Positions 1,365 to 58,839 of a DNA stretch of 64,000 bases are shown one piece after another. The translations under genes were made by a program, and so were the position numbers. Numbering within the stretch: position 1 is the stretch's first letter; each line of letters begins with the position of its first letter. The DNA is from Taeniopygia guttata (taxonomy: Eukaryota > Chordata > Aves > Passeriformes > Estrildidae). The DNA lies in assembly GCF_048771995.1 (NCBI RefSeq), contig NC_133028.1, forward strand, positions 1,704,001 through 1,768,000, read 5' to 3'. Under the pieces are notes generated by a model. It did not search any database. It had not been told where the DNA came from and saw only the letters and a list, made by a program, of their open reading frames with translations.

Positions 1365-25882
<24,518 letters not shown>

Positions 25883-25904: not shown

Positions 25905-26805
25905 ACAAATCCCCTTTTTCCTGCAATGGGATCCCCCTTCTCTACAATCAGACCCCCTTTTCCTACAATGGGATCCCCCTTTTCCTACAATCAAATCCCC
26001 CTTTTCCTACAATCAAATCCCCCTTTCCTACAATCAGACCCCCTTTTCCTACAATCAAATCCCCCTTTCCTACAATCAGATCCCCTTTTCTGACAATCGG
26101 ATCCCCCTTTCCAACAATCAAATCTCCCTTTTCCTACAATCAAATCCCCCTTTCCTACAATCAGACCCCCTTTTCCTACAATCAGATCCCCTTTTCCTAC
26201 AATGGGATCCCCCTTTTCCAACAATCGAATCCCCCTTTTCCTACAATCAAATCCCCCTTTCCTACAATCAAATCCCCCTTTCCTACAATCAAATCCCCCT
26301 TTCCTACAATCAGACCACCTTTTCCTACAATCAAATCCCCCTTTCCTACAATTAATCCCCTTTTCTGACAATTGGATCCCCCTTTCCTTCAATCGGATCC
26401 CCCTTTCCTACAATCAAATCCCCCTTTTCCTACAATCAGATCCCCCTTTCCTACAATAGGATCCCTCTTTCCTACAATCAGACCCCCTTTTCCTACAATC
26501 GAATCCCCCTTTCCTACAATCAAATCTCCCTTTCCTACAATCAAATCCCACTTTCCTGCAATTAATCCCCTTTTCTGACAATTGGATCCTCCTTTCCGAT
26601 AATCGGATCCCCCTTTCCTACAATCGGATCCTCCTTTCCTACAATCAGACCCCGTTTTCCTACAATCAAATCCTACAATTAATCCCCTTTTCTGACAATT
26701 AGATCCCCCTTTCCTACAATCAGATCCCCCTTTCCAACAATCGAATTCCCCTTTCCGACAATCAAATCCCCCTTCCCAAAACTGGATCCCCCTTCCCTAA
26801 AATCG
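25905..26805 (+). repeat. Minisatellite in ATP6V1B1 3' UTR, about 21-bp unit
   Basis: About 40 copies of TTTCCTACAATCAAATCCCCC with variants such as GACAATCGGATCC. It lies between the stop codon and the probable poly(A) signal, so it would be transcribed into the mature 3' UTR. Confidence 0.93.
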
Positions 26806-26832
26806 GGAAAAATCCCTTTATTTTTATTGATG

Positions 26833-26838
26833 AATAAA
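26833..26838 (+). terminator. Probable ATP6V1B1 poly(A) signal AATAAA
   Basis: First canonical AATAAA after the stop codon, 950 bp downstream, at the end of the 3' UTR array and before the next gene's promoter. Confidence 0.65.
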
Positions 26839-26959
26839 CAACCGCGGTCACCCAAACCCTTCCACGCTCCGATGTTTCCTTCCACGCCTGTGGAATTCCC
26901 ACCCCTGGGAACCTCTGGAGCAGCAACTCCTGAGCCCACCCCGAGTTCCAGCTCCCCAA

Positions 26960-27176
26960 AATCCCATAATTCTGTGTTTTAGGGGAAAACTACCCCGTGG
27001 AAAATCCCGACATCCCCCCGCGGGTTTCGCTTCCCCCGTGTTGGGATCGGGGCCCCTTGGGAGGAGGGAGGGGAGAGGGAGGGGAGGGTGGTTTCACTTC
27101 CCTGTGGGGAGCCAGGAGGCAGCGCCGGGGAGAGGGAGGCACCCCAAAATCTCGGGGGTTTTAGGGGGCCCTGGGC
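26960..27176 (+). promoter_or_regulatory. Putative promoter / 5' UTR of the shootin-like gene
   Basis: A short unique GC-rich segment with CCCCCCGCGGGTTTCGC and GGGAGGGGAGGGTGG between the ATP6V1B1 poly(A) signal and the first plausible start codon. The role is inferred from position. Confidence 0.4.
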
Positions 27177-27216
27177 ATGGCCTGGGTTGGGGACGGCATC
27201 GGGGGACACCTCATGG
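27177..27216 (+). CDS. Shootin-like exon 1 (start exon, two candidate ATGs)
   Basis: The donor GTAAGG at 27217 follows ATGG, whose final G joins CC of exon 2 to give Ala. The ATG at 27213 gives MAILESGSSEEE, most like MNSSDEE of SHTN1. An in-frame upstream ATG at 27177 has a better context (G at -3 and +4) and would add 12 residues. Confidence 0.6.
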
Positions 27217-30200
27217 GTAAGGGGGAACTCGTGGGGGATTTTCAGGGGGTCACCAGCGGGGTTTGGGGGTTGAGATTTGGGGTTGGAGGGAGTGAAAGCA
27301 AATTGGGTGAAAGCAAATCCCTCCTCAGATTTGGGGGATTGGCTGGGGAGAGGGTCCAGCCCCAGGAAAAGGGGTTGGGATTCAGATTCCTGAGCGCGTT
27401 CCCCGCCGGATCGGGATTGTGGGAATGGTTCAGGAGGAGCCAGGGACCCAAAGGATGTCCCCAATCCCACCTTGGGGACACCAGAGGTGTGTCCCCCCAT
27501 CCTGAGGGGACACTCGGGAGTGCCCAGGACCATCCTGTCCCCCACGGTCACCCCGGTGTCCCCGCAGCCATCCTGGAGTCCGGGAGCAGCGAGGAGGAGG
27601 AGGAGCAGGAGGAGGAGGATGAAGAGGCAGCCCTTGGACAGGTATCACTTCCAGACTCCCTTTCCATCGGATTTCCCGTTCCTGATCCCATAAATCAGGG
27701 GGGGTGAAGAGGGGGTGCCCCGTGCCAGGCCAATGGAATTCCACACCAGTGCAATGCCGTGCCGATGGAATTCTGCGCCAAAGCAGCGCCAGTGCCAAAC
27801 AGCATCATTCCGATGGAACGCCGTGCCAGTGGAATTCCATCCTGAGGGCCACCCCATCCCAATGGAACTCCATCCCAATGGAACTCCATCCCAATGGAAT
27901 TCCACTCTGAGGGCCACCCCATCCCAATGGAACTCCATCCCAAGGGCCATTCCATCCCAATGGAACTCCATCCCAATGGAACTCCATCCCAATGGAACTC
28001 CATCCCAATGGAATTCCATCCCAATGGAACTCCATCCCAATGGAATTCCATCCCAAGGGCCACCCCATCCCAATGGAACTCCATCCCAATGGAACTCCAT
28101 CTTCCATCCCAAGGGCCATTCCATCCCAATGGAATTCCATCCTGAGGTCATGCCATTCCCAATGGAACTCCATCCCAAGGGCCGTTCCATACCATGACAA
28201 TGCCATGCTGTGCCAACACGGTGACATTTGCCATGGCCATGCCGATGGAACTCCATGTTGATGGAACTCCATGCCAATGGAATTCCATGCCAAGCCAACG
28301 CCTCATTCCCGTTTTTCCCACCACAGCACCCGGCCCTGGATCCAGTGCCAGATGACACCGAGACTCGGCTGGCCCAGCTGGAGCAAGGTGAGCCCTGTCC
28401 CATCCCGGTGTCCCATCCCGGTGTCCCATCCCGGTGTCCCATCCCGGTGTCCCACCCCCATGTCCCCAATGCCCCCGGCACCTCCCTGGCCCCCACAGGC
28501 TCAGGGTTCAATCCCCGCCTGGCACGGTGCCAGCCCCGATTCCTGGGTGCCCTGGCCGGGCTCCGGGCATGGGGGACCGCGGGCAGGACACGCCGGTGGC
28601 ACCTGACCCCCGATGTCACCGCCGGTGTCACCGGCAGCGTCACAGGCGCTGCTGGCCGAGCTGGCGGCGCTGGACACCGAGGTGGAGATGGAGCTGCGGT
28701 GCCAACAGCGAGCCCAGGCCTTCAGTGCCCAGGTGGGGTGGGGACAGGTCCCCAGAATTGTCCCTTTTTGGGGACAAAGGTGCTGGGGTACCCTCGGGGC
28801 ACACCCGGCTCGGGGGGCGTGGGGGGAACCCCAGTTCTGGGATTCTGGGATTCTGGTGGAGCAGGAGGACACGCGGCTGGAGAGGATCAGCCTGGCCGGG
28901 ACACCTGAGGGGACCCCAGGGGAGGTGACAGCTGTGATGAGCCCCGAGGTGGCCCCAGAGGAAGTGACACCCACAGGGGTGGCCCTGGAGGAGCCCCCTG
29001 CCCCTGCCCAGCTCCCAGGTGAGCCTGAGGTGTCCCATCCCAATCCCATCCCATCCATCCCAGTCCCAACCCAACCCAATCCCAATCCAAATCCCATTCC
29101 AATTCCATCCCATCACATTTCCTCCCCATCTCATTTTATCCCACTCCATTTCATCCCAAATCTTCCCAATTCCATCCCATCCCATCCCAATCTAAATCCC
29201 AATCCCATCCCATCCATCCCACCCAATCCCAATACCACTTCCATCCCACCTCAATCCCAATTGGAATCCCATCCCATCCATCCCACCCAATCCAAATCCA
29301 AATCCCATTTCGATCCCACGTCATCCCATCCAATCCCAATCCCAATCTCATCCAATCCCAATCCCATCCCAATCCCATCCTACTGCATTTCCTCCCCATC
29401 TCATTTTATCCCACCTCATTTAATCCCAAATCATCCCAATTACATCCCATTCCACTCTGATCCCAATCCAAATCCAAATCCCAATCCCATCCCATCCTTC
29501 CCAGACAATCCCATTCCCAATCCCATCCCATCCATCCCACCCCAGTCCCAATCCCAGTCCCAATCCCAATCCAAATCCCATCACATCCATCCCACTTTAT
29601 CCCAATCCCAATTGTAATCCCAATCCAATCCCATCCCATCCATCCCACACAATCCCAATATCAATCCCAATCCCAATTCCATCCCACCTCATCCCATCCA
29701 CTCCCAATCCCAATCTCATCCCAAACCATCCCAATCCCATTCCATCCATCCCACCCAATCCCAATCCCAATTCCATCCCACCTCATCCCATCCAATCCCA
29801 ACCCCAATCTCAGCCCATCCCACCCATCCTATCCCATCCCACCCCACCCATCCCTGCCCCGCTGTCCCCAAATCCCGAGCTGTCCCCACGCCGCGTTTTG
29901 GGGCCGTTCCCGAGCCCCATTTTGGGTCAAACCAAGCAAAAGCGACACCGAAACCCAACCGCGGGCACCGAAACCGCTCGCACTTCCCCTTTCCCATCCC
30001 CTTTTCCCAAGGTGCCGCTTCCGGCTCTCGGACACCCCAAATTCCCCAATCCCAGTGCTGGGATGATCCTTGGGGGGTGTTTGGGGTTTGCCACTTCATT
30101 CCCATATGGATCCCAGAGCAGAGGCAGATTCCAGTCGGGATATGGGGGACACAGCTGGGATGGGGTCACCGGGGGGGGTCCAGCTCCGGGAGGGGTGTGC

Positions 30201-33200
30201 TGCCCTTTCCCATCCCTTTTTTCCCCCTTTCCCATCTCTTTTTTCCCCCTTTCCCACCTTTTCCCTCCCTTTCCCATCCCTTTTTTCCCCCTTTCCCATC
30301 CCTTTTTTCCCCCTTTCCCACCTTTTCCCTCCCTTTCCCATCCCTTTTTTCCCCCTTTTCCACCTTTTCCCTCCCTTTTCTAACCCCTCAATTCCCCCTT
30401 TCCCACTCTTCCCCCCCCCATTTCTCCCCTTTTCCCCCCATTTTCTCCCCATTTTCCCCCCCCTTTTCCCTCACTTTTCCCTCACTTTTCCCTCACTTTT
30501 CCCTCACTTTTCCCTCACTTTTCCCTCACTTTTCCCTCACTTTTCCCTCACTTTTCCCTCACTTTTCCCTCACTTTTCCCTCACTTTTCCCTCACTTTTC
30601 CCTCACTTTTCCCCATTTCCCCCCCTTTTCCACCCCTTTTCCCCCTTTCCCCCATTTCCCCCCTCTTTTTTCCCTTTTCCCCTTTTCCCACTTTCCCCCC
30701 TTTATTCCCCCCCTTTATTCCCCCCCATTTCCCCCCATTTCCCCCCCTAATTTCCCCCAATTTTCCCCACATTTTCCCCTTTTTTTCTTCATTTTCTCCC
30801 CATTTTCCCCCCCATTTTTCTCACTTTTCCCCCCTTTTTTTCCCCTTTTCCCATTTCCCTCATTCCCTCTTTTCCCACAGCTCCGCAGGAAAATCTCTCC
30901 GAGCTCCTGGAACAGCACCGGGACCTCGGGGTGCAGCTGCAGCACCTGCAGGCCCAGGTACCCCAAAACCGACCCCAACCCCCTTTTCCATTTGGGAATT
31001 CTTCCCAAATTTGGGATTCCCATTTGGGAATTTTGGGATGAAACCCCCACTAATGTCCCGGGGTTCAGGGTGGGATTTTTCCCTGATTTTTCGTGGATTT
31101 ATCACTGATTTTTCACTAATTTTTTGTGGATTTTTCACTGATTTTTCACTAATTTTTCCTGCATTTTCTCCCAGATTTTTCTTGAATTTTTCATGAATTT
31201 TTTGCAGATTTCTCCTGGATTTTCTCCCAGATTATTTGCAGCTTTTTTTTTTTACAGATTTTTCACAGATTTTTTGCTGATTTTCATGGGGTTTTTTTTG
31301 TTAGAATTTTTACAGGTTTGTCATGGATTTTCTCCTGGATAGTTTTCTGATTTCTCCCAGATTTTCTTTAGGATTTTCCCTGGATTATTCACAATTTTTT
31401 CACAGATTTTTCACGGGTTTTTTTTGGGTTTTTTTTCAGACTTTCATGATTTTTTTTCTCTGATTTTTCACAAATTTTTCGTGGATTTTTCACGGATTTT
31501 TTTCTGATTTCACCTGGACTTTCTCCCGGATTTCTCCCAGATTATTCACAAATTTTTCACAGATATTTCAAGGGTTTTCTGCAGATTTTCACAGATTTTT
31601 TTTTCTCAGATTTTTCGCGAATTTTTCACGGATTTTTCTCCAGATTTCTCCTGAATCTCTCACTGATTTTTCGCAGATGCTTTGCAGATTTTCCACGGAT
31701 TTTTCACTGATTTCTTCCCATATTTTTCACAGAATTTTCACTGATTTTTTTCCAGATTTTTTGCGAATTTTTCACGGATTTTTTGCGGGTTTTTCATGAC
31801 TTTCTCACGTATTTTTCACTGATTTTTCTCCTGGATTTTTGCGGGTTTTTCATTGATTTCTCAAGGATTTTTCACTGATTTTCTCCCGGATTTTTGCAGG
31901 GTTTTCATTGATTTCTCACGGATTTTTCACTGACTTTCTCCTGGATTTTTGCAGGTTTTTCATGGATTTCTCACGGATTTTTCACTGATTTTTTCCCAGA
32001 TTTTTTCAGGTATTTCATGGATTTCTCACGGATTTTTCACTGATTTTTTCCCAGATTTTTTCAGGTATTTCATGGATTTCTCACGGATTTTTCACTTATT
32101 TTCTCCCGGATTTTTGCGGGTTTTTCACTGATTTTCTCCCGGATTTTTGTGGGGTTTTCATGGATTTCTCACTGATTTTTCACTGATTTTCTCACGGATT
32201 TTTGCGGGTTTTTCATCGATTTCTCACAGATTTTTCACTGATTTTCTCCTGGATTTTTGTGGGGTTTTCATTGATTTTTTTGCAGATTTTTCACTGATTT
32301 TTCTCCTGGATTTTTCCGGGTTTTTCATGGATTTCTCACGGATTTTTCACTGTTTTTTCCCGGCACAGCTGGAGCTGGAGCGGGAGGAGCAGCAGCGCCT
32401 GCGGGCAGCCCTGGCCAGCAGCCACAGGGCTCTGAGGTCCTTCAAGAGAGGTCAGCAGTGTCCCCATGTCCCCTCCTGGTGCCACCAGTGCCACCAGTGC
32501 CACCCCAACCACCGGCTGGCACTGCCCGTGGCTGTCCCCACCCAGGGCAGGTGGCAGAGCCCGTGGTGGCATCACCCTCATTTCCCACTTTTCCCTCCTT
32601 TGTCCTTCTTTTTCCCCTTTTTTTCCTCTTTTTTCCCCCTTTTTTCCCCTTTTTTCCCCTTTTTCCCCTTTTTTTCCCTTTTTTTCTCTTTTTTCCCCTT
32701 TTTTCCCCTTTTTCCCCCTTTTTCCCCCTTTTTTCCCCCTTTTCCCCCTTTTCCCCCTTTTTCCCCCTTTTCCCCCTTTTCCCCCTTTTCCCCCTTTTCC
32801 CCCTTTTCCCCCTTTTCCCCCCTTTTCCCCCCTTTTTCCCCTTTTTTCCCCCTTTTTTCCCCTTTTTTCCCCTTTTTTCCCCTTTTTTCCCCTTTTTCCC
32901 CCTTTTTCCCCTTTTTCCCCCCTTTCTTCCCCATTTTCCCACCTTTTCCTCCCCAATTTCCCATTTTTCCCCCACCCCTTTCCCTCCCATTTCCCAAATC
33001 TTTTCCATCCTTTTCTTCCATTTTCCCACCTTTCCTGACCCCTTTTCCCCCTTTTCCCTCCCCCCTTTTTTCCCCTTTTTTCCCCTTTTTTCCCCCTTTT
33101 TTCCCCTTTTTTCCCCTTTTTTCCCCTTTTTTCCCCCTTTTTCCCCCTTTTTCCCCATTTTTCCCCATTTTTCCCCTTTTTTCCCCTTTTTTCCCCTTTT

Positions 33201-36200
33201 TTCCCCTTTTTTCCCCTTTTTTCCCCTTTTTTCCCCTTTTTTCCCCTTTTTCCCCCTTCTTCCCCTTTTTTACCCTTTTTAACCCTTTTTTATCCTTTTT
33301 AACCCTTTTTACCCTTTTCCCCCCTTTCTTCTCCATTTTCCCACCTTTTCCTCCACACTTTTCCCACCTTTCCCCTCCCCAATTTTCCACCTTTTTCCCC
33401 ACACTTTTCCCTCCCATTTCCCAAATCTTTTCCATCCTTCACTTCCATTTTCCCACCTTTCCCTGCCCCCTTTTCCCCCTTTTCCCTCCCCCCTTTTTTC
33501 CCCTTTTTTCCCCTTTTTTCCCCTTTTTTCCCCTTTTTTCCCCTTTTTTCCCCTTTTTTCCCCTTTTTCCCCCTTTTCCCCTTTTTTCCCCTTTTTTCCC
33601 ATTTCCCCCCCTTTCTTCCCCATTTTTCCACCTTTTCCTCCCCAATTTCCCATTTTTTCCCCCACCCCTTTCCCTCCCATTTCCCAAATCTTTTCCATCC
33701 TTCACTTCCATTTTCCCACCTTTCCCCTCCCCAATTTCCCACCTTTTTCCCCACACTTTTCCCTCCCATTTCCCAAATCTTTTCCATCCTTTTCTTCCAT
33801 TTTCCCACCTTTCCCTGCCCCCTTTTCCCCCTTTTCCCTCCCCCCTTTTCCCACCTTTTCCTCCCCCATTTCCCACCTTTTTTCCACCCTTTTTTCCCCC
33901 ATTTCCCACCCCTTTTCCCGCCGTCCCCGGTGCCACCGCGCTGTCCCCGCAGTGTCCCAGATTGTCACCCAGGATTACTGCCAGGCCCTGGAGCAGCTGG
34001 AGCTGGAGCAGGACCTGCGCTGCCACGCCGAGGCCTTCGCCCACCAGGTGCCACCAAGGCCTTGGGGACACCGCTGGGGGTGGCACGGAGGTGACAATGG
34101 GGTGTGTCAGCACCCCTGGCACCCATCCCGAGGGAATGGGGTCATCCCAAGGGAATGGGGCGATCCCAAGGGAATGTGGTGATCCCAGGATTCTCCCGTT
34201 GTGGTTTCCCAGGATGGAGCCACCAGCTCCTCTAGAAGGTGACACCGAGGTGACACCAAGAGTTTGGGGACATTGCTGGAGGTGGCATGGAGGTGACAAT
34301 GGGGTGTGTCAGCACTTCTGGCACCCATCCCGAGGGAATGGGGTGATCCCAAGGGAATGGGGTGATCCAAAGGGAATGGGGTGATCCCAGGATTCTCCTG
34401 CTGAGGTTTTCCAGGATGGAGCCACCAGCTCCTCTAGAAGGTGCCACCGAGGGGTTGGGGACACCACTGGGGGTGGCACAGAGGTGACAATGGGGTCTAC
34501 CAGCACCCCTGGCACCCATCCTGAGGGAATGGGGTCATCCCAAGGGAATGGGATTATCCCAGGATTTTCCCATGGCGGTTTCCCAGGATGGAGCCACCAG
34601 CCCCTCTAGAAGGTGCCACCAAGGCGTTGGGGACACTGCTGGAGGTGGCACGGAGGTGACAATGGGGTCTACCAGCACCCCTGGCACCCATCCCGAGGGA
34701 ATGGGGTGATCCCAAGGGAATGGGGCGATCCTAAAGGGAATGGGATCATCCCAGGATCCCCCCGTTGTGGTTTCCTGGGATGGAGCCACCAGCCCCTCTA
34801 GAAGGTGCCACCGAGGGGTTGGGGACTCCGCTGGGGGTGGCACGGAGGTGACAATGGGGTCTACCAGCACTTCTGGCACCCATCCCGAGGGAAGGGAGTG
34901 ATCCTAAGGGAATGGGATTCACCCCAGGATTTTCCCATGGCGGTTTCCCAGGATGGAGCCACCAGCTCCTCTAGAAGGTGACACCGAGGTGACACCGAGA
35001 GTTTGGGGACTCCGCTGGGGGTGGCACGGAGGTGACAATGGGGTCCACCGGCACTTCCGGCACCCATCCCAAGGGAACGGGGTGATCCAAAGGGAATGTT
35101 GTGATCCCAGGATTCTCCTGCTGAGGTTTCCCAGGATGGAGCCACCAGCTCCTCTAGAAGGTGACACCGAGGTGACACCGAGAGTTTGGGGACATTGCTG
35201 GGGGTGGCACGGAGGTGACAATGGGGTGTGTCAGCACCCCTGGCACCCATCCCGAGGGAAGGGGGTGATCCCAAGGGAATGGGGCGATCCCAGGATTCTC
35301 CTGCTGAGGTTTCCCAGGATGGAGCCACCAGTGCCTCTAAAAGGTGACACCGAGAGTTTGGGGACATTGCTGGAGGTGGCACGGAGGTGACAATGGGGTC
35401 TACCAGCACTTCTGGCACCCATCCCAATGGAATGGGGTCATCCCAAGGGAACGGGATTCACCCCAGGATTTTCCCGGGATGGAGCCGGGTGGGATTCACC
35501 ACCAGCCCCTCTGGAAGGTGACACCGAGGTGACACCAAGGTGACACAGAGGTGACACCCGCGCTCCCAGATGCTGGTCCAGCAGAAGGAGGCGAAGCGCC
35601 AGAGCTCCATCCTGCTGAGGAGCGCCGCGCCCGATTCCCAACTCCTGGAAGCGCTCCAGGAACTGGAAAAACTCGGCCAGGAGCTGGAGGAGACACGGCG
35701 GGAACTGCGCCAGCAGGTGAGGGACTGTCCCCAAACTTGGGGACATCGCTGGGAGGGGACAGCAGCTCCAGGTCACATCCCTCGATTCCCATTTTTCCAT
35801 GGAGCGCTGCTATTCCATGGATTTCCCACCATGGATTTCCCACCATGGAGTTCCCACCATGGATTTCCCACATGGATTTCCCACCATGGATTTCCCACCA
35901 TGGAATTCCCCATGGATTTCCCTCCATGGATTTGTCAGCATGGATTTCTTTCCATGATTTCCTAGCATGGAATTCCCACCTTGGAATTCCCACCTTGGAA
36001 TTCCCACCTTGGAATTCCCACCATGGATTCCCCTCCATGGATTCCCCTCCATGGATTTCCCTCCATGGATTTCCCTCCATGGATTTTCCACCATGGAAAT
36101 CCCACCATGGATTTCCCACCATGGATTTCCTTCCATGGATTTCCCACCATGGATTTCCCTCCATGGAATTCCCTCCATGGAATTCCCACCTTGGATTTCC

Positions 36201-39200
36201 ATCCATGGAATTCCCTCCATGGATTTCCCTCCATGGATTTTCTTCCACGGAATTCCATCCATGGATTTCCCACCTTGGAATTCCACCATGGAATTCTCAA
36301 TTTGGATTTCCACCATGGATTTCCATCCATGATTTCCCTTCATGGATTTTCTTCCATGGAATTCCATCCATGGATTTCCCACCATGGATTTCCCACCATG
36401 GATTTCCCACCATGGATTTCCTTCCATGGATTTCCACCATGGAATTCCCACCATGGACTTCCCACCTTGGATTTTCCACCATGGAATTCCATCCATGGAT
36501 TTCCATCCATGGATTTCCCTCCATGGATTTTCTTCCATGGAATTCCATCCATGGATTTCCCACCATGGATTTCCCACCTTGGAATTCCACCATGGAATTC
36601 TCACCTTGGATTTCCACCATGGATTTCCCTCCATGGATTTCCCTCCATGGATTTCCCTCTGTGATTTCCATCCTTGGATTTCCACCATGGAATTCCCACC
36701 TTGGATTTCCCCCCATGGATTTCCACCCATGGATTTCCCTCCATGGAATTCCCACCATGGATTTCCCTCTGTGATTTCCACCATGGATTTTCCACCATGG
36801 ATTTCCCTCCATGGATTTCCCACCTTGGATTTTCCACCATGGAATTCCATCCATGGATTTCCATCCATGGATTTCTTTCCATGGATTTCCCACCATGGAT
36901 TTCCTTCCATGGATTTCCCACCATGGATTTACCACCTTGGATTTTCCACCATGGAATTCCATCCATGGATTTCTTTCCATGGATTTCCCTCCATGGATTT
37001 CCCTCCATGGATTCCCCTCCATGGACTTCCTTCCTTGGATTTCCCTCCATGGAATTCCCACCACGGATTTCCCTCCATGGATTTTCTTCCACGGAATTCC
37101 ATCCATGGATTTCCCACCTTGGATTTCCCTCCACGGAATTCCCACCATGGATTTCCTTCCATGGATTTCCCACATGGATTTCCCTCTGTGATTTCCACCA
37201 TGGATTTTCCACCATGGAATTCCCACTTTGGATTTCCTTCCATGGAATTCCCACCTTTGATTTCCCACCATGGATTTCCCTCCATGGATTTCCCCCCATG
37301 GAATTCCCACCTTGGATTTCCATCCATGGATTTCCCTCTGTGATTTCCATCCATGGATTTCCCTCCATGGATTTGCCAGCATGGATTTCCTTCCATGATG
37401 TCCTATCATGGAATTCCCACCTTGGAATTCCCACCTTGGAATTCCCACCATGGATTTCCCTCCATGGATTTTCCACCATGGAAATCCCTCCATGGATTTT
37501 CCACCATGGAAATCCCACCATGGAAATCCCACCATGGACTTCCCTCCATGGATTTCCCACCATGGATTTCCCACCATGGATTTCCTTCCATGGATTTCTT
37601 GCAGGGATTTCCCACCATGGATTTCCCTCCATGGATTTTCCACCATGGATTTCCCTCTATGATTTCCACCTTGGATTTCCCTCCATGGAATTCCCACCAT
37701 GGAATTCCCCCCATGGATTTCCCCGCATGGATTTCCCTCCATGGATCTCCCACCTTGGATTTTCCACCATGGAATTCCATCCATGGATTTCCCTCCATGG
37801 ATTTCTCACCATGGATTTCCTTCTATGGATTTCCACCATGGAATTCCCACCATGGATTTCCCACATGGATTTCCCACCATGGATTTCCCACCATGGATGT
37901 CCCACCATGGATTTCCCTCCATGGATTTCCCTCCATGGATTTCCCTCCATGGATTTCCCACCATGGATTTCCCACCATGGATTTCCTTCCTTGGATTTCC
38001 CTCCATGGATTTTCCACCATGGATTTCCCACCATAGATTTCCCACCATGGATTTCCTTCCATGGATTTCCCACATGGATTTCCCTCCATGGATTTTCTTC
38101 CACGGAATTCCATCCATGGATTTCCCACCTTGGAATTCCACCATGGAATTCTCACCTTGGATTTCCACCATGGATTTCCATCCATGGATTTCCCTCCATG
38201 GATTTCCCTCCATGGATTTCCCACCATGGATTTCCCACCATGGATTTCCCACCATGGATTTCCTTCCATGGATTTCCCACATGGATTTCCCTCCATGGAT
38301 TTTCCACCATGGAAATCACACCATGGAAATCACACCATGGAAATCCCACCATGGATTTCCCTCTGTGATTTCCATCCTCGGATTTCCACCATGGAATTCC
38401 CACCTTGGATTTCCCCCCATGGATTTCCACCCATGGATTTCCCTCCATGGATTTCCCTCCATGGAATTCCCACCATGGATTTCCCTCCATGGATTTCCTC
38501 TCATGGAATTCCAACCATGGATTTCCCACCATGAATTTCCCCCCATGGATTTCTCTCTATGGAATTCCCACCACGGATTTCCCTTCATGGAATTCCCACC
38601 TTGGATTTCCCACCTTGGATTTCCATCCATGGAATTCCCTCCATGGATTTTCTTCCACGGAATTCTATCCATGGATTTCCCACCATGGATTTCCCACCTT
38701 GGAATTCCACCATGGAATTCTCACCTTGGATTTCCACCATGGATTCCCATCCATGGATTTCCCTCCATGGAATTCCCACCTTGGATTTCCATCCATGGAA
38801 TTCCCACCTTGGATTTCCCTCCATGGATTTCCTTCCTTGGATTTCCCACCATCGATTTCCCACCTTGGATTTTCCACCATGGAATTCCATCCATGGATTT
38901 CCCTCCATGGATTTCCCACCACAGATTTCCCTCCATGGATTTTCTTCCATGGATTTCCCTCCATGGATTTCCCTCCATGGATTTCCTCTCATGGAATTCC
39001 AACCATGGATTTCCTTCCATGGATTTCCACCTTGGATTTCCCACCTTGGATTTCCCACCTCGGATTTTCCACCATGGATTTCCATCCATGGATTTCCTCC
39101 CATGGAATTCCCACCATGGATTTCCATCCATGGATTTCCCAACGTGAATTCCCTGTTTGATTTCCATCCATGGAATTCCCACCATCCCACAGCGAGGGGC

Positions 39201-42200
39201 GATTTTCCCTAAAACCCGCCGGGAGTTTTTCCCTAAATTCCCGATTTTAGGGTCGGGGAGCGTCGCCGTTCTTGGGGTTTTTCCCAAATCCCGGAATTCC
39301 CACAGGAGAAGGAGCTGGAGCAGGAGCGGGAGGAGCTGCGGCGGGCACGGGAGGAGAAGCGGGAGCTGATGGAGAGGCTGGAAGAGCTGGAGAAGGAAGG
39401 TGGGAATTTCCACATGGAATTCCAGCGGGTTCCCTGGGGGCGTTCCAAAAATTCCAGAGGGTTCCAGAGAAATTTTTTTTAATTCCATGGGGGTTTTAGA
39501 GATTCCAGGGGGATTCCAGAAGATTCCAGACAGATTTCAAAGGATTCCAGAGGGATTTTAGAGGATTCTAGAAGAATTCCAGGGGGGTTCCAGAGGATTC
39601 CAGGAAAATTCCACGTGTATTCCAAAGAATTCCAGGGGAATTCAGGAAAATTCCAGACGAATTCCAGAGAATTCCAGAGGGATCCAGGGGATTCCATGGG
39701 GATCAAAAAAAATGCCAGGGGGATTTTAGAGGATTCCAGAGGGATTCCAGATGGATTCCAGAAGATTCCAGACTTAATCCAAAGAATTCCAGAGGGTTCC
39801 GGGGGATTCCAGAGGGATTCCAAAGAATCCCAGACAGATTCCAAAGAAATCCAGAGAATTCCAGAAGGATTCCAGAGGGATTCTCGGTGGGGTTCCAGTG
39901 GAGCTCCAGATAATTCCAGAGGGTTTCCAGAGGATTCCAGAGGATTCCAGAAGGATTCCAGAGGATCCCAGGGGAATTCCAGGGGATTCCAGGCGGATTT
40001 CAAAAGAATTCTAGAGGGATTCCCGGGGGATTCCAGGAGGAGTCCAAAGAATTCCAGAGAAATTCCAGGAGGATTCCAGGGGAATTCCAGGGGGATTCCA
40101 AAGAATTCCAGAGGGTTACCAAAGGATTCCAAAGAATTCCAGAGGAATTCCAGGGGGATTCCAAAGAATTCCAGGGGAATTCCAGATGATTCCAAGGAGT
40201 TTCCGGGGGGAATTCCCGACAATTCCAGAGAATTCCAGGGGTGATTCCAGAAAGTTCCAGAGGGATCCCCAACCCCATCCCGGCCTCATTCCAGCGGGAT
40301 CCCTCCGGGAGCAGCTGGCACAGCGGCCGCCACCCCCGAGCCACCCCGAGGTGCCACCGGCGCCACCGCTGCCACCGCCTGCTGCCACCGCCGTCCCCGC
40401 CGAGTAGGTGACACATCCCACCACCAACCTTCCGGAATATTCCTGGAAAAGCGCCGTCCCCACCCTGGCTGTCCCCCAGAGGGGAGGGGACAGGGTGGCA
40501 GATGGGAGGTGTCACCTGCTGTCCCCTCCGGTGTCACCTGCTGTCCCCTCCGGTGTCACCTGCTGTCCCCTCCCCGCAGCCCCCTGGCCACGCTCCGGCA
40601 GAGGAAGGCGCGGAAAAACCGGGAGCAGAGTGAGTCCTGAGGGGGGGAGTGTCCCCAAAGTGTCACCAAGGGGACAGCGGGAGTGTCCCCAAAACGTCAC
40701 CAAGGGGACAGCGGGAGTGTCCCCAAAGTGTCACCAAGGGGACAGCGCGAGTGTCCCCAGAATGTCACCGAGGGGACATCGAGATTGTCCCTGAAGTGTC
40801 ACCAAGGGGACATTGGGAGTGTCCCCAAAACCTCACCAAGGGGACAGCGGGAGTGTCACCAGAGTGTCACCGGGGGGGCCATTGGGAGTGTCCCCAAGGG
40901 GACATCGGGAGTGTCCCCAGAGTGTTACCAGGGGGGACATCGGAAGTGTCCCCAAAATGTCACTGAGGGGACATCGAGATTGTCCCTGAAGTGTCACCAA
41001 GGCAACATTGGGAGTGTCCCCAAAGTGTCACCAGGACAGGGGCGTGGGGACATTGGGAGTATCCCCAAGGGGACATCGGGAGTGTCCCCAAAATGTCACC
41101 AAGGGGATATCGGGAGTGTCCCCAGAATGTCACTGGGGGGACATTGGGAGTGTCCCCAAAATGCCACCAGGACAAGGGGGTGGGAACAACCTGAGTGTCC
41201 CCAAAATGTCACCAGGACAGGGTGGTGGGGACATCTGGAGCGTCCCCAAAGTGTCACCAGGACAAGAGGTGCTCCAGGGGTCCCCCAGCTCCATCGGGGG
41301 TGATCTGGGGACAGGGTGGCACTGCCAGGGGAGGTGACAGCTCCACCCTCAGCGTGTCCCCAGCACGGGGAGGTGACAGCGGTGCCACCCTGGCAGGTGA
41401 CACGGGCACCGAGGACATCCGGGCGCGGGCGGTGCAGGAGATGCTGGAGCGGATCCGCAGCGGGATCGTCCTGCGGCCGGCCAGGGCCCGGCCACCCCCA
41501 TGCCAGGTGACAACGGGGACAAGGGGACAACGGGTGGCCAGGCTGGCACAGCGGGGCTCCGGAATTCCCGGGATTGAGCCATTCCCGATTTCCTTCAGGA
41601 CTCCACGGCCAGCAAGAGGCGGAGCGCGGCGCTGGAGCTGGCGGGCATCCTGGTGGGCAGCGCTGTCCCCTCGGTGTCCCCTCGGTGTCCCCTCAGTGTC
41701 CCCTCGGTGTCCCCTCGGTGTCCCCACACTGTCCTCACTCTGTCCCCATGCTGCCCCTTTGGTGTCCCCATGGCGCCCCTATGCTGCCCCCTTGATGTCC
41801 CCTTAGTGTCCCCACACTCTCACCTTGATGTCCCCTTTGCTGTCCCCTTAGTGTCCCCATGGTGTCCCTTGATGTCCCCGTGGTGTCTTCTTGGTGTCCC
41901 CTTTGGTGTCCCCATGTTGTCCCCTTTGGTGTCTCCACACTCTCCCCTTGATGTCCCCTTAGTGTCCTCATTTGTCCCCATGATGTCCCCACACTGTCCC
42001 CTTGCTGTCCCCTTTGGGGTCCCCATAGTGTCCCAATGATGTCTTCTTGATGTCCCCATGCCATCCCCATGGTGTCCTCCTTGCTGTCCCTCTTGGTGTC
42101 GCTTTGGTGTCTCCATGATGTCCCTTGATGTCCCCGTGGTGTCTTCTTGGTGTTCCCTTGGTGTCCCTGTGGTGTCCCCACGATGTCCCCTTGCTGTCCC

Positions 42201-43875
42201 CTTTGGTGTCCCCCTGGTGACCGCGGCTGTCCCAGGGTGCCCTGCGGAGGCCGAGCCGGAGGCGCAGCCGGAGGAGCTGGGAGCAGCAGCCGGGATCGGC
42301 CCCGGAGCTGGGATTGGTCCTGGAGCGGCGGCGCCGGGCCCTGGACGCTTCCATGGGGAATTCCATGGGGGATTCCATGGGGAATTCCATGGGGGATTCC
42401 ATGGGGGATTCCATGGGGGATTCCATGGGGAACTCCATGGGGAACTCCATGAGTACCAATTCCATGGGGAATTCCATGGGGGATTCCATGGGGAATTCCA
42501 TGGGGGATTCTATGGGGAGCTCCATGGGGAATTCCATGGGAGATTCCATGGGGAACTCCATGGGGAACTCCATGGGGAGCTCCATGGGGAACTCCATGGG
42601 GAATTCCATGGGGAACTTCATGGGAGATTCCATGGGGAACTCCATGGGGAAGTCCATGAGCACCAATTCCATGGGGAACCATTCCAAGGGCACCAATTCC
42701 ATGGGGAATTCCATGGGAGATTCCATGCGGAGCTCCATGGGGAAGTCCATGAGCACCAATTCCATGGGCACCAATTCCATGGGGAATTCCATGGTCACCA
42801 AATCCATGGGGAACCATTCCATGGGCACCAAATCCATGGGGAATTCCATGGGCACCAAATCCATGGGGAACCATTCCATGGGCACCAAATCCATGGGGAA
42901 TTCCATGGGCACCAAATCCTTGGGGAACCATTCCATGGGCACCAATTCCATGGGGAACCATTCCATGGGCACCAAATCCATGGGGAACCATTCCATGGGC
43001 ACCAAATCCATGGGGAATTCCATGGGCACCAAATCCATGGGGAACCATTCCATGGGCACCAATTCCATGGGGAATTCCATGGGGAACCATTCCAAGGGCA
43101 CCAATTCCATGGGGAATTCCATGGGGGATTCCATAAGCACAGATTCCATGGGCACCAATTCCATGGGGAATTCCATGGGGGATTCCATAAGCACCAATTC
43201 CACGTGCCCCAATTCCACAGGCACCAATTCCATGGGTACCAATTCCACGGGAAATTCCATGGGAAACCAGTCCATGGAGAATTCCATGGGAAACCATTCC
43301 AAGGGCACCAATTCCATGGGCACCAAATCCAAGGGCACCAATTCCATGGGAAATTCCATGGGTACCAATTCCGTGGGGAATTCCATGGGGAATTCCATGA
43401 GCACCGATTCCACGGGCACCAATTCCATGGAGAACCATTCCAAATGCACCAATTCCATGGGGAATTCCGCGGGCACCGATTCCACAGGCGCCAATCCCAT
43501 GAGGAATTCCATGAGCACCAATTCCTTGGAAAATTCCATGAGCACCGACTCCACGGGCACCGATCCCACCAGGAATTCCACAGGAGCTTGGGATGGAACT
43601 GGGAAGGAGCCGGTCGTGGGTACGGAGCCGGGAACGTCCCCGGGGAGGGCGCGGAGGTGACACCGGCAGCTGCCACCTCCTGTCCCCTCCCTGTCCCATC
43701 CCTGTCACGGCTTTTCCCAGGAAACCGCCGCCAGGACACGGAAAAGGACATGGAAAAGGACGTGGAAAAGGAGCAGGAGCTGGCCAAGGTCCCCTTCCGG
43801 CCCCGGGGCCTTGGTGGCCTTCCCAGGACGCGTCCCCGTCCCCGCTGGGCTGGGGACAGCGGGGACAAGGCCTAG
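27177..43875 (+). CDS. Shootin-1-like coiled-coil protein (SHTN1 paralogue)
   Basis: A paralogue of shootin-1, the cytoplasmic clutch protein that in mammals couples actin flow to L1 adhesion during neuronal polarisation; the job of this copy is unknown. Exons: 27213-27216 (or from 27177), 27568-27641, 28327-28387, 28638-28732, 28865-29018, 30881-30957, 32369-32450, 33953-34047, 35570-35716, 39306-39399, 40295-40403, 40580-40629, 41397-41506, 41599-41652, 42236-about 43619 and 43721-43875. All junctions keep one frame. An acidic N-terminus (MAILESGSSEEEEEQ) precedes a coiled coil of about residues 45-300 with VSQIVTQDYCQALEQLELEQ and KRQSSILLRSAAPDSQLLEA, which align with SHTN1 VSMLAVEEYEEMQVNLELEK and KRQSHLLLQSSIPDQQLLKA. 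A proline-rich stretch (about 295-331) and RAVQEMLERIRSGIVLRPA follow, the latter like SHTN1 RQAVEEMMDRIKKGVHLRPV. The tail contains AKVPFRPRGLGG, like SKVTFQPPSSIG. Exons 1 and 15 are the least certain. Confidence 0.85.
27568..27641 (+). CDS. Shootin-like exon 2
   Basis: Encodes ILESGSSEEEEEQEEEDEEA and ALGQ, an acidic head. The acceptor is CCCGCAG and the donor GTATCA. Only composition, not sequence, matches SHTN1 here, but the frame joins perfectly to exon 3. Confidence 0.7.
27720..28310. repeat. Minisatellite, 16-bp unit AATGGAACTCCATCCC
   Basis: About 35 copies, mixing GGAACTCCATCCC and GGAATTCCATCCC units with GGGCCACCCCATCCC inserts. The unit is near-palindromic (GGAATTCC, GGAACTCC). 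It fills shootin-like intron 2. Confidence 0.93.
28327..28387 (+). CDS. Shootin-like exon 3
   Basis: Encodes HPALDPVPDDTETRLAQLEQ. The end aligns with the EAVKKLEEFQK stretch of SHTN1 at the start of its first coiled coil. The donor is GTGAGC. Confidence 0.78.
28638..28732 (+). CDS. Shootin-like exon 4
   Basis: Encodes SQALLAELAALDTEVEMELR and CQQRAQAFSAQ, position for position comparable with SHTN1 EEVNFMQNHLEIEKTCRESA. The donor is GTGGGG. Confidence 0.85.
28865..29018 (+). CDS. Shootin-like exon 5
   Basis: Encodes EDTRLERISLAGTPEGTPGE and VTAVMSPEVAPEEVTPTGVA followed by LEEPPAPAQLP. EDTRLERIS matches NKTLKRIS of SHTN1, and the following acidic linker is also present in the homologue. 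The donor is GTGAGC. Confidence 0.83.
29030..29860. repeat. Minisatellite of CAATCCCAATCCCATCC units
   Basis: About 830 bp of AATCCC and CATCCC words arranged in higher-order blocks with CATCCCATCCATCCCACCC. It fills the left part of shootin-like intron 5. Confidence 0.92.
30200..30870 (+). repeat. Polypyrimidine arrays (TTTTCCCTCAC; CCCTTTCCCATC)
   Basis: Two related arrays. A 24-32 bp TTTTTTCCCCCTTTCCCATC unit occupies 30200-30400, and a perfect 11-bp TTTTCCCTCAC unit is repeated 13 times at about 30467-30610. They run up to the exon 6 acceptor and serve as its long polypyrimidine tract. Confidence 0.93.
30881..30957 (+). CDS. Shootin-like exon 6
   Basis: Encodes PQENLSELLEQHRDLGVQLQ and HLQAQ, a heptad-rich coiled-coil segment. 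The acceptor is TTCCCACAG and the donor GTACCC. Confidence 0.82.
31050..32360 (+). repeat. T-rich minisatellite, unit near GGATTTTTCACTGATTT
   Basis: About 1.3 kb of 16-45 bp units. Around 31800-32340 a higher-order unit of about 65 bp contains TCTCCTGGATTTTTGCGGGT and TCACGGATTTTTCACTGATT. It fills shootin-like intron 6. Confidence 0.93.
32369..32450 (+). CDS. Shootin-like exon 7
   Basis: Encodes LELEREEQQRLRAALASSHR and ALRSFKR, coiled coil. It ends in KR before VSQ of exon 8, as CNR-VSM does in SHTN1. The donor is GTCAGC. Confidence 0.85.
32575..33925 (+). repeat. Polypyrimidine array of CCCCTTTTTT units, 1.35 kb
   Basis: C/T-only except for a recurring block of about 190-330 bp containing CCATTTCCCAAATCTTTTCC and TCCATTTTCCCACCTTTCC. 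It fills shootin-like intron 7. Long frames here are repeat translation. Confidence 0.94.
33953..34047 (+). CDS. Shootin-like exon 8
   Basis: Encodes VSQIVTQDYCQALEQLELEQ and DLRCHAEAFAHQ, one of the two segments with the clearest identity to SHTN1 (ELEKDLRKKAESFAQE). The donor GTGCCA is weak. Confidence 0.92.
34048..35510. repeat. Long-unit array, about 160-200 bp, starting at the exon 8 donor
   Basis: About eight copies, each with GGTGCCACC or GGTGACACC, GGTGGCACGGAGGTGACAAT, GGCACCCATCCCGAGGGAAT and CCCAGGATGGAGCCACCAGC. The array begins exactly at the donor GTGCCACCAAGG, so each internal unit reproduces a donor-like AAG-GTGCCACC. It fills shootin-like intron 8. Confidence 0.93.
35570..35716 (+). 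CDS. Shootin-like exon 9
   Basis: Encodes MLVQQKEAKRQSSILLRSAA, PDSQLLEALQELEKLGQELE and ETRRELRQQ. It matches SHTN1 MFIEQNKLKRQSHLLLQSSI and following residues; this is the most diagnostic exon. The donor is GTGAGG. Confidence 0.94.
35800..39190. repeat. 3.4-kb minisatellite, 14-bp unit CCATGGATTTCCCT
   Basis: About 230 copies with CCATGGAATTCCCA and CTTGGATTTCCA variants. Both strands are open in every frame because the unit lacks stop words, which creates spurious proteins of up to 564 residues. It fills shootin-like intron 9. Confidence 0.95.
39306..39399 (+). CDS. Shootin-like exon 10
   Basis: Encodes EKELEQEREELRRAREEKRE and LMERLEELEKE, heptad-rich coiled coil corresponding to SHTN1 KELEEQLENE onwards. 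The donor is GTGGGA. Confidence 0.88.
39440..40260. repeat. Minisatellite of GGATTCCAGAG units
   Basis: About 820 bp of 10-15 bp GATTCCAGAGG, AATTCCAGGGG and related words, with no clean period. It fills shootin-like intron 10. Confidence 0.9.
40295..40403 (+). CDS. Shootin-like exon 11 (proline-rich)
   Basis: Encodes GSLREQLAQRPPPPSHPEV and PPAPPLPPPAATAVPA. A proline-rich segment follows the coiled coil at the same place in SHTN1. The donor must be GTAGGT at 40404, because retaining three more bases (GAG then TAG) would stop translation. Confidence 0.8.
40580..40629 (+). CDS. Shootin-like exon 12
   Basis: A 50-bp exon encoding PLATLRQRKARKNREQ, a basic stretch like SHTN1 PIRSLMSMIRKR. The acceptor is CCCGCAG and the donor GTGAGT. 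Confidence 0.82.
40640..41285. repeat. Minisatellite of AAGGGGACATCGGGAGTGTC units
   Basis: About 18 copies of a unit of about 33 bp, CCCAAAATGTCACCAAGGGG plus ACAGCGGGAGTGTCC, with some longer GGACAGGGG variants. It lies in shootin-like intron 12. Confidence 0.92.
41397..41506 (+). CDS. Shootin-like exon 13
   Basis: Encodes DTGTEDIRARAVQEMLERIR and SGIVLRPARARPPPCQ. It matches SHTN1 EEVTDLKRQAVEEMMDRIKK and GVHLRPV. The donor is GTGACA. Confidence 0.93.
41599..41652 (+). CDS. Shootin-like exon 14
   Basis: Encodes DSTASKRRSAALELAGIL, like SHTN1 CESAVDELKGIL. The donor is GTGGGC. Confidence 0.85.
41655..42232. repeat. Minisatellite of CCTTGGTGTCCC units
   Basis: About 570 bp of 12-15 bp GTGTCCCC words with CTTGATGT, CTTGGTGT and CATGGTGT variants. 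It fills shootin-like intron 14. Confidence 0.92.
42236..43619 (+). CDS. Shootin-like exon 15, running into a 12-bp coding-phase array
   Basis: The first about 38 codons give GALRRPSRRRSRRSWEQQ and GLVLERRRRALDAS, aligning with SHTN1 GTLNKSTSSRSLKS and ELERILRRRKVTAEA. The frame then continues without a stop through Ser-Met-Gly-Asn/Asp repeats. A donor GTACGG at 43620 gives the right phase for exon 16. Earlier in-phase donor-like GTACCA sites (for example near 42453 and 43246) could shorten the exon, so the right end is uncertain. Confidence 0.5.
42350..43590. repeat. Minisatellite, 12-bp unit TCCATGGGGAAT
   Basis: About 100 units, most of 12 bp and the rest of 15 bp (ATGGGCACCAAATCC types). 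The reading register Ser-Met-Gly-Asn is kept from end to end. All three forward frames lack stops, so openness alone is not proof of coding. Confidence 0.93.
43721..43875 (+). CDS. Shootin-like exon 16 (terminal coding)
   Basis: Encodes NRRQDTEKDMEKDVEKEQEL, AKVPFRPRGLGGLPRTRPRP and RWAGDSGDKA, then TAG. The KVPFRPRGLGG part resembles SHTN1 KVTFQPPSSIG, which supports this frame. The acceptor is CTTTTCCCAG. Confidence 0.65.
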
Positions 43876-44954: not shown

Positions 44955-44960
44955 AATAAA
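44955..44960 (+). terminator. Probable shootin-like poly(A) signal AATAAA
   Basis: First canonical AATAAA after the TAG stop, about 1.08 kb downstream, within TCCAAATAAAATTTTTATTT. The minus strand also reads AATAAA a few bases on (44964-44969). Confidence 0.65.

Positions 44961-47036: not shown

Positions 47037-58839
<11,803 letters not shown>

Follow-up and report, generated by a model that had tools for sequence, protein, structure and literature searches.

Which gene lies between ATP6V1B1 and TEX261 in the bird Taeniopygia guttata and, if it is a shootin, which one? In other vertebrates, shootin helps cells to grip and pull. The locus falls within a stretch of 64,000 nucleotides, here called the window, that spans 1.704-1.768 Mb of contig NC_133028.1 (C5 in our numbering, 73.8 Mb long; assembly GCF_048771995.1), and the gene in question occupies positions 27177-43875 counted from the first letter of that window. 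We conclude that it is a shootin paralogue with a complete coding sequence, most likely orthologous to shootin2; the vertebrate whole-genome duplications would have left it beside VAX2 and ATP6V1B1, and SHTN1 at the VAX1 locus. We give this reading a probability of roughly 80%.

Sixteen exons rebuilt from the sequence join over this interval on the + strand into a product of 926 amino acids, read in a single frame from the ATG at 27177 to a stop codon that ends at 43875, with no internal stops and with GT...AG borders at all 15 introns. An earlier note on this DNA had likewise joined 16 exons in one frame, and the same interval was recovered with every splice border intact. The two peptides quoted in the earlier note were located at 35594 and 41435 of the + strand, where they sit in different exons; a probe that joined them matched nothing in the bird's own genome. 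The start codon has a favourable context (gggcATGG), the GC content of the core by codon position is 0.79/0.46/0.86, and a polyadenylation-like signal (AATAAA) follows on the + strand at 44955-44960.

The protein is related to shootin1 (SHTN1). When compared by blastp with a human SHTN1 sequence that was not copied from a database record, the 926-residue protein was identical at 139 of 464 positions (30%; 182 bits, E 9e-53). Because coiled coils may align through composition alone, 401 shuffled or reversed controls were made; the 453-residue core scored 181 bits against human SHTN1, while no control exceeded 64.7 bits among 200 block shuffles, 59.7 among 200 heptad-keeping shuffles or 42.4 for the reversed sequence. 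The proposal that the coiled coil and C-terminal blocks align with SHTN1 is thus borne out far above these controls. Judged by alignment only, both serines of the Pak1 sites are kept, as Ser99 (in the motif RIS, equivalent to SHTN1 Ser101) and Ser238 (KRQS, equivalent to Ser249). Agreement with the human protein was 40/125 aligned positions in region 126-260, 37/97 in the cortactin-binding region 261-377 (a figure that its proline-rich stretch may inflate), and 27/69 and 9/34 in regions 378-456 and 457-495. Among structural and family resources, the PDB held no relative of the protein at E 0.01, and Rfam gave no match at gathering scores between 25800 and 47000. A Pfam match to Fez1 (28.1 bits, E 3.4e-06) was set aside as it lay under the 34.4 cut-off of that family, and a second Pfam match was at chance level.

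The gene is a shootin paralogue separate from SHTN1. Searching the genome (1.14 Gb in 41 contigs) located the bird's own SHTN1, exon by exon, on another contig (C8, 30.332-30.385 Mb). Across the 375 columns common to the three proteins, in which the bird SHTN1 was represented by 12 joined exons, the human and bird SHTN1 sequences were identical at 309 positions and the window protein was identical to each of them at 126; the direct comparison of human with bird SHTN1 gave 347/427. Equal distance from both SHTN1 proteins is expected if the paralogues split before the two SHTN1 genes did, and a split older than the divergence of the human and bird SHTN1 would account for it, although fast evolution may play a part. 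The earlier note had proposed such a second shootin gene; instead of a sole copy clustering inside the SHTN1 orthologues, two copies were found, and the separate gene on C8 together with the equal distances rules out that the window gene is SHTN1 itself.

Neither of two genome searches revealed a third shootin. A probe of 407 residues from the window protein gave 12 matches at E <=0.01 among the best 102 of 335 candidates, ten at this locus, one in SHTN1 and one on C32; the last (E 0.0024) is weak and was taken for a generic coiled coil. Using the human SHTN1 sequence, the best 70 of 129 candidates included 24 matches at E <=1, of which 13 fell in SHTN1 on C8, one at this locus and ten elsewhere (E 0.05-0.96), the latter again weak and taken for chance matches of coiled or proline-rich sequence. 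A diverged third copy could have been missed by these searches, since the 407-residue probe matched even SHTN1 in one exon only.

The two genes share their exon structure. Entry and exit phases were identical in 14/14 exon pairs (window exons 1-11 and 13-15 against the bird's SHTN1) and lengths were identical in seven (61, 95, 82, 95, 147, 110 and 54 bases); the entry phases of SHTN1 were read by hand and chain consistently from exon to exon, with exons 1 and 2 compared by eye. Exon 1 (27177-27216) carries the start codon and MAWVGDGIGGHLM and runs from phase 0 to 1, and exon 2 (27568-27641), with an acidic stretch, runs from phase 1 to 0. Both phases and length agree for exon 3 (28327-28387, 61 bases, SHTN1 exon A), exon 4 (28638-28732, 95 bases), exon 7 (32369-32450, 82 bases), exon 8 (33953-34047, 95 bases), exon 9 with the KRQS motif (35570-35716, 147 bases), exon 13 with the QEMLERIRSGIVLRP block (41397-41506, 110 bases) and exon 14 (41599-41652, 54 bases). 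The phases also agree for exon 5 with the RIS motif (28865-29018), exon 6 (30881-30957), the coiled-coil exon 10 (39306-39399), which lacks 60 bases relative to SHTN1, the proline-rich exon 11 (40295-40403) and exon 15 (42236-43619), which corresponds to SHTN1 exon M and encodes 39 SHTN1-like residues followed by a minisatellite. For exon 16 (43721-43875), which ends in the stop codon TAG, only the entry phase was compared, and it agrees with that of SHTN1 exon N. A counterpart of exon 12 (40580-40629) was sought in pieces of the SHTN1 locus, with no convincing match.

The surroundings of the two genes correspond as well. Probes that were not copied from database records gave the order VAX2-ATP6V1B1-shootin paralogue-TEX261-NAGK, with exons of ATP6V1B1 at 11120-25852 on the + strand (the probe was human ATP6V1B2, and the assignment to B1 follows from the neighbours) and exons of TEX261 on the opposite strand at 47040-58839. 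A VAX gene interpreted as VAX2 is represented by two homeobox exons, 20 and 4 kb ahead of the window, and another, interpreted as VAX1, stands at 30.4316 Mb on C8, upstream of SHTN1. These loci were by far the best homeobox matches (E 1e-22, next 3e-14), and at both the VAX gene stands upstream of the shootin on the same strand. In PMC3827601, Shootin is among the genes duplicated near the atp6v1B genes, with duplicates mostly in human 10q26, 2p13 and 8p22, a pattern described as consistent with whole-genome duplication; the two shootin loci are as expected of such a pair. In human, ANKRD53 follows ATP6V1B1 (PMC4630852), confirming the order that the earlier note gave for this slot. A consensus probe run without a positive control found no ankyrin repeats, as in ANKRD53, at E 0.01 across 264 kb around the gene (C5 1604001-1868000), and thus no trace of ANKRD53 where the human genome has it. 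Within TEX261, the 3' part of one exon on the - strand occurs twice (51546-51674 and 52917-53072, ~1.4 kb apart), and the copies have identical letters across the shared part into the start of the intron, which suggests a recent partial exon duplication.

Which shootin is it? Zebrafish shootin2 and shootin3 were named in a 2019 paper, which records shootin2 from fish, frog and a marsupial (the Tasmanian devil) and as absent from placentals, shootin3 only from fish, the coelacanth included, and shootin1 alone from birds (PMC6704158). Among the papers listed in searches of open-licence literature, we found no report of a bird shootin2. Because shootin3 is reported only in fish, the second shootin of a tetrapod is most likely shootin2, and we infer that identity, rather than shootin3, for the window gene. 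One character points the other way: the same paper states that zebrafish shootin2 lacks the Ser249 site and that zebrafish shootin3 has it (PMC6704158), and the window protein, in keeping the equivalent serine, fits shootin3 better. Orthology to shootin3 is nevertheless decidedly unlikely in our view, given its restriction to fish and the conserved synteny reported for frog and marsupial shootin2, the neighbour genes of which the text does not name (PMC6704158). The supposed loss of the gene in mammals holds for placentals, where its absence is reported, and fails for mammals as a whole, the Tasmanian devil having shootin2 (PMC6704158); nor can a second shootin count as a new paralogue, duplicated shootin genes having already been described (PMC3827601, PMC6704158).

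The predicted C-terminus carries an unusual coding repeat. The minisatellite of exon 15 occupies 42353-43582 on the + strand (1.23 kb, mostly 12/15-bp units) and would add 410 residues in frame (Ser 99, Gly 74, Met 73, Asn 61, Thr 40), a tail that is probably disordered. For each of the three hexamers most frequent in it, every spacing is divisible by three (69/69, 62/62 and 61/61), whereas in an array of intron 9 that also has CCATGG units only 20/180, 20/166 and 14/157 are. Among 18 other hand-picked arrays of the window, a single one has all hexamer spacings in multiples of three, and its unit is 6 bp. The register of exon 15 fits selection on the reading frame, and slippage by whole units of 12 or 15 bp would also keep the frame without selection. 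Such slippage, the variation in amino acid among the array codons and the existence of splice isoforms 1a and 1b of shootin1 itself (PMC6704158) would suit a different model of exon 15, in which the minisatellite is untranslated and the protein ends or splices earlier. We consider this mismodelling unlikely, as the perfect hexamer register was matched, among the 18 other arrays picked, only by the 6-bp array and the exon enters and leaves in the phases of SHTN1 exon M. A bird shootin2, missed so far, in which a translated, frame-locked minisatellite of ~410 residues has taken the place of the C-terminal part, making it a length-variable cytoskeletal clutch protein, is a proposition that we see as evenly balanced.

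The 6-bp array consists of CCCATT hexamers and extends over ~750 bp at 337-1089. Tandem repeats account for 67% of the window as a whole and for 78% of the span of this gene, with no overlap with 10 of the 16 exons. It is plausible that this richness in repeats hides the gene in short-read assemblies, and the repeat coverage would explain any absence from them.

Besides the retained Ser249 equivalent, several observations weigh against a complete and functional shootin2. The human SHTN1 probe was not copied from a database record. Agreement with it amounts to 26/100 aligned positions in the L1-CAM-binding region (1-125) and to 9/44 in the first 58 residues, the most changed part of the protein. 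No clear CpG-island promoter was seen at the 5' end: observed/expected CpG was 0.31-0.49 in five 500-base segments starting from 26750 to 27750, and 0.71, at a GC content of 47%, in the segment starting at 26500. Shorter words in the exon-15 array are slightly off register (ATGG in 64/65 spacings, ATG in 71/74), and the openness of that array proves little, because stops are also missing from a second forward frame and from two of the reverse frames.

Part of this evidence would also suit an intact-looking shootin2 pseudogene that has lost its expression. The lack of a clear CpG island, the fast divergence (~33% identity to SHTN1, compared with 347/427 between the human and bird SHTN1) and the heavy invasion of the introns and exon 15 by repeats are all in its favour. 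However, the 16 exons retain intact splice dinucleotides without an internal stop, their phases are conserved relative to SHTN1, and the frame is kept in the exon-15 array, unlike in the intron arrays tested; on this balance a pseudogene appears very improbable. Judging from the sequence, the shootin paralogue is presumably transcribed.

What might a protein-coding shootin2 do in a bird? By analogy with its relatives, the product would be a coiled-coil clutch that works at the leading edge of migrating cells or of growth cones, where it would couple the retrograde flow of F-actin to adhesion; Pak1 may tune it at Ser99 and Ser238. All three zebrafish shootins are described as moving with F-actin flow (PMC6704158), and the L1-CAM-binding part of shootin1a comprises residues 1-125, its cortactin-binding part residues 261-377 (PMC6080949). 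Because divergence is greatest in the first ~58 residues and in exon 10, which is shortened, the protein may have another adhesion partner than SHTN1 and may differ from it in cortactin binding. Taken together, the region identities, the altered N-terminus and the shorter exon 10 lead us to expect that coupling on the actin side would be kept and the adhesion side changed.

Should this reading be true, the range of shootin2 would extend to birds, its absence from placentals would look like the exception among tetrapods, and one more gene would join those that short-read assemblies may miss. With the central coiled coil and LRP block kept, and the adhesion-binding end and tail changed, the protein could serve as a natural experiment on which parts the shootin core requires, and its coding minisatellite may vary in length from one individual to another. 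Shootin duplicates had already been recorded in fish, frogs and marsupials, and the find is real, not revolutionary; what is new here is a further member of a known family, which lies where known paralogous segments would lead one to expect it and carries an unusual coding repeat.

Set beside the known shootins, the gene resembles SHTN1 in exon order and phases, coiled coils, the proline-rich exon, the EMxxRIxxGxxLRP block, both Pak1-site serines and the VAX gene upstream, and differs from it in being 33-34% identical, with an altered N-terminus, an exon 10 reduced by 60 bases, a minisatellite tail and a position on another contig. Compared by description only, it shares with fish shootin3 the Ser249 equivalent, although that protein is known from fish lineages only. 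Shootin2 of fish, frog and Tasmanian devil, set against the window protein by description as well, differs in that the zebrafish protein is without the Ser249 site and that birds are listed only for shootin1; it is alike in being the second tetrapod shootin outside the SHTN1 locus, of which the window gene would be the avian orthologue.

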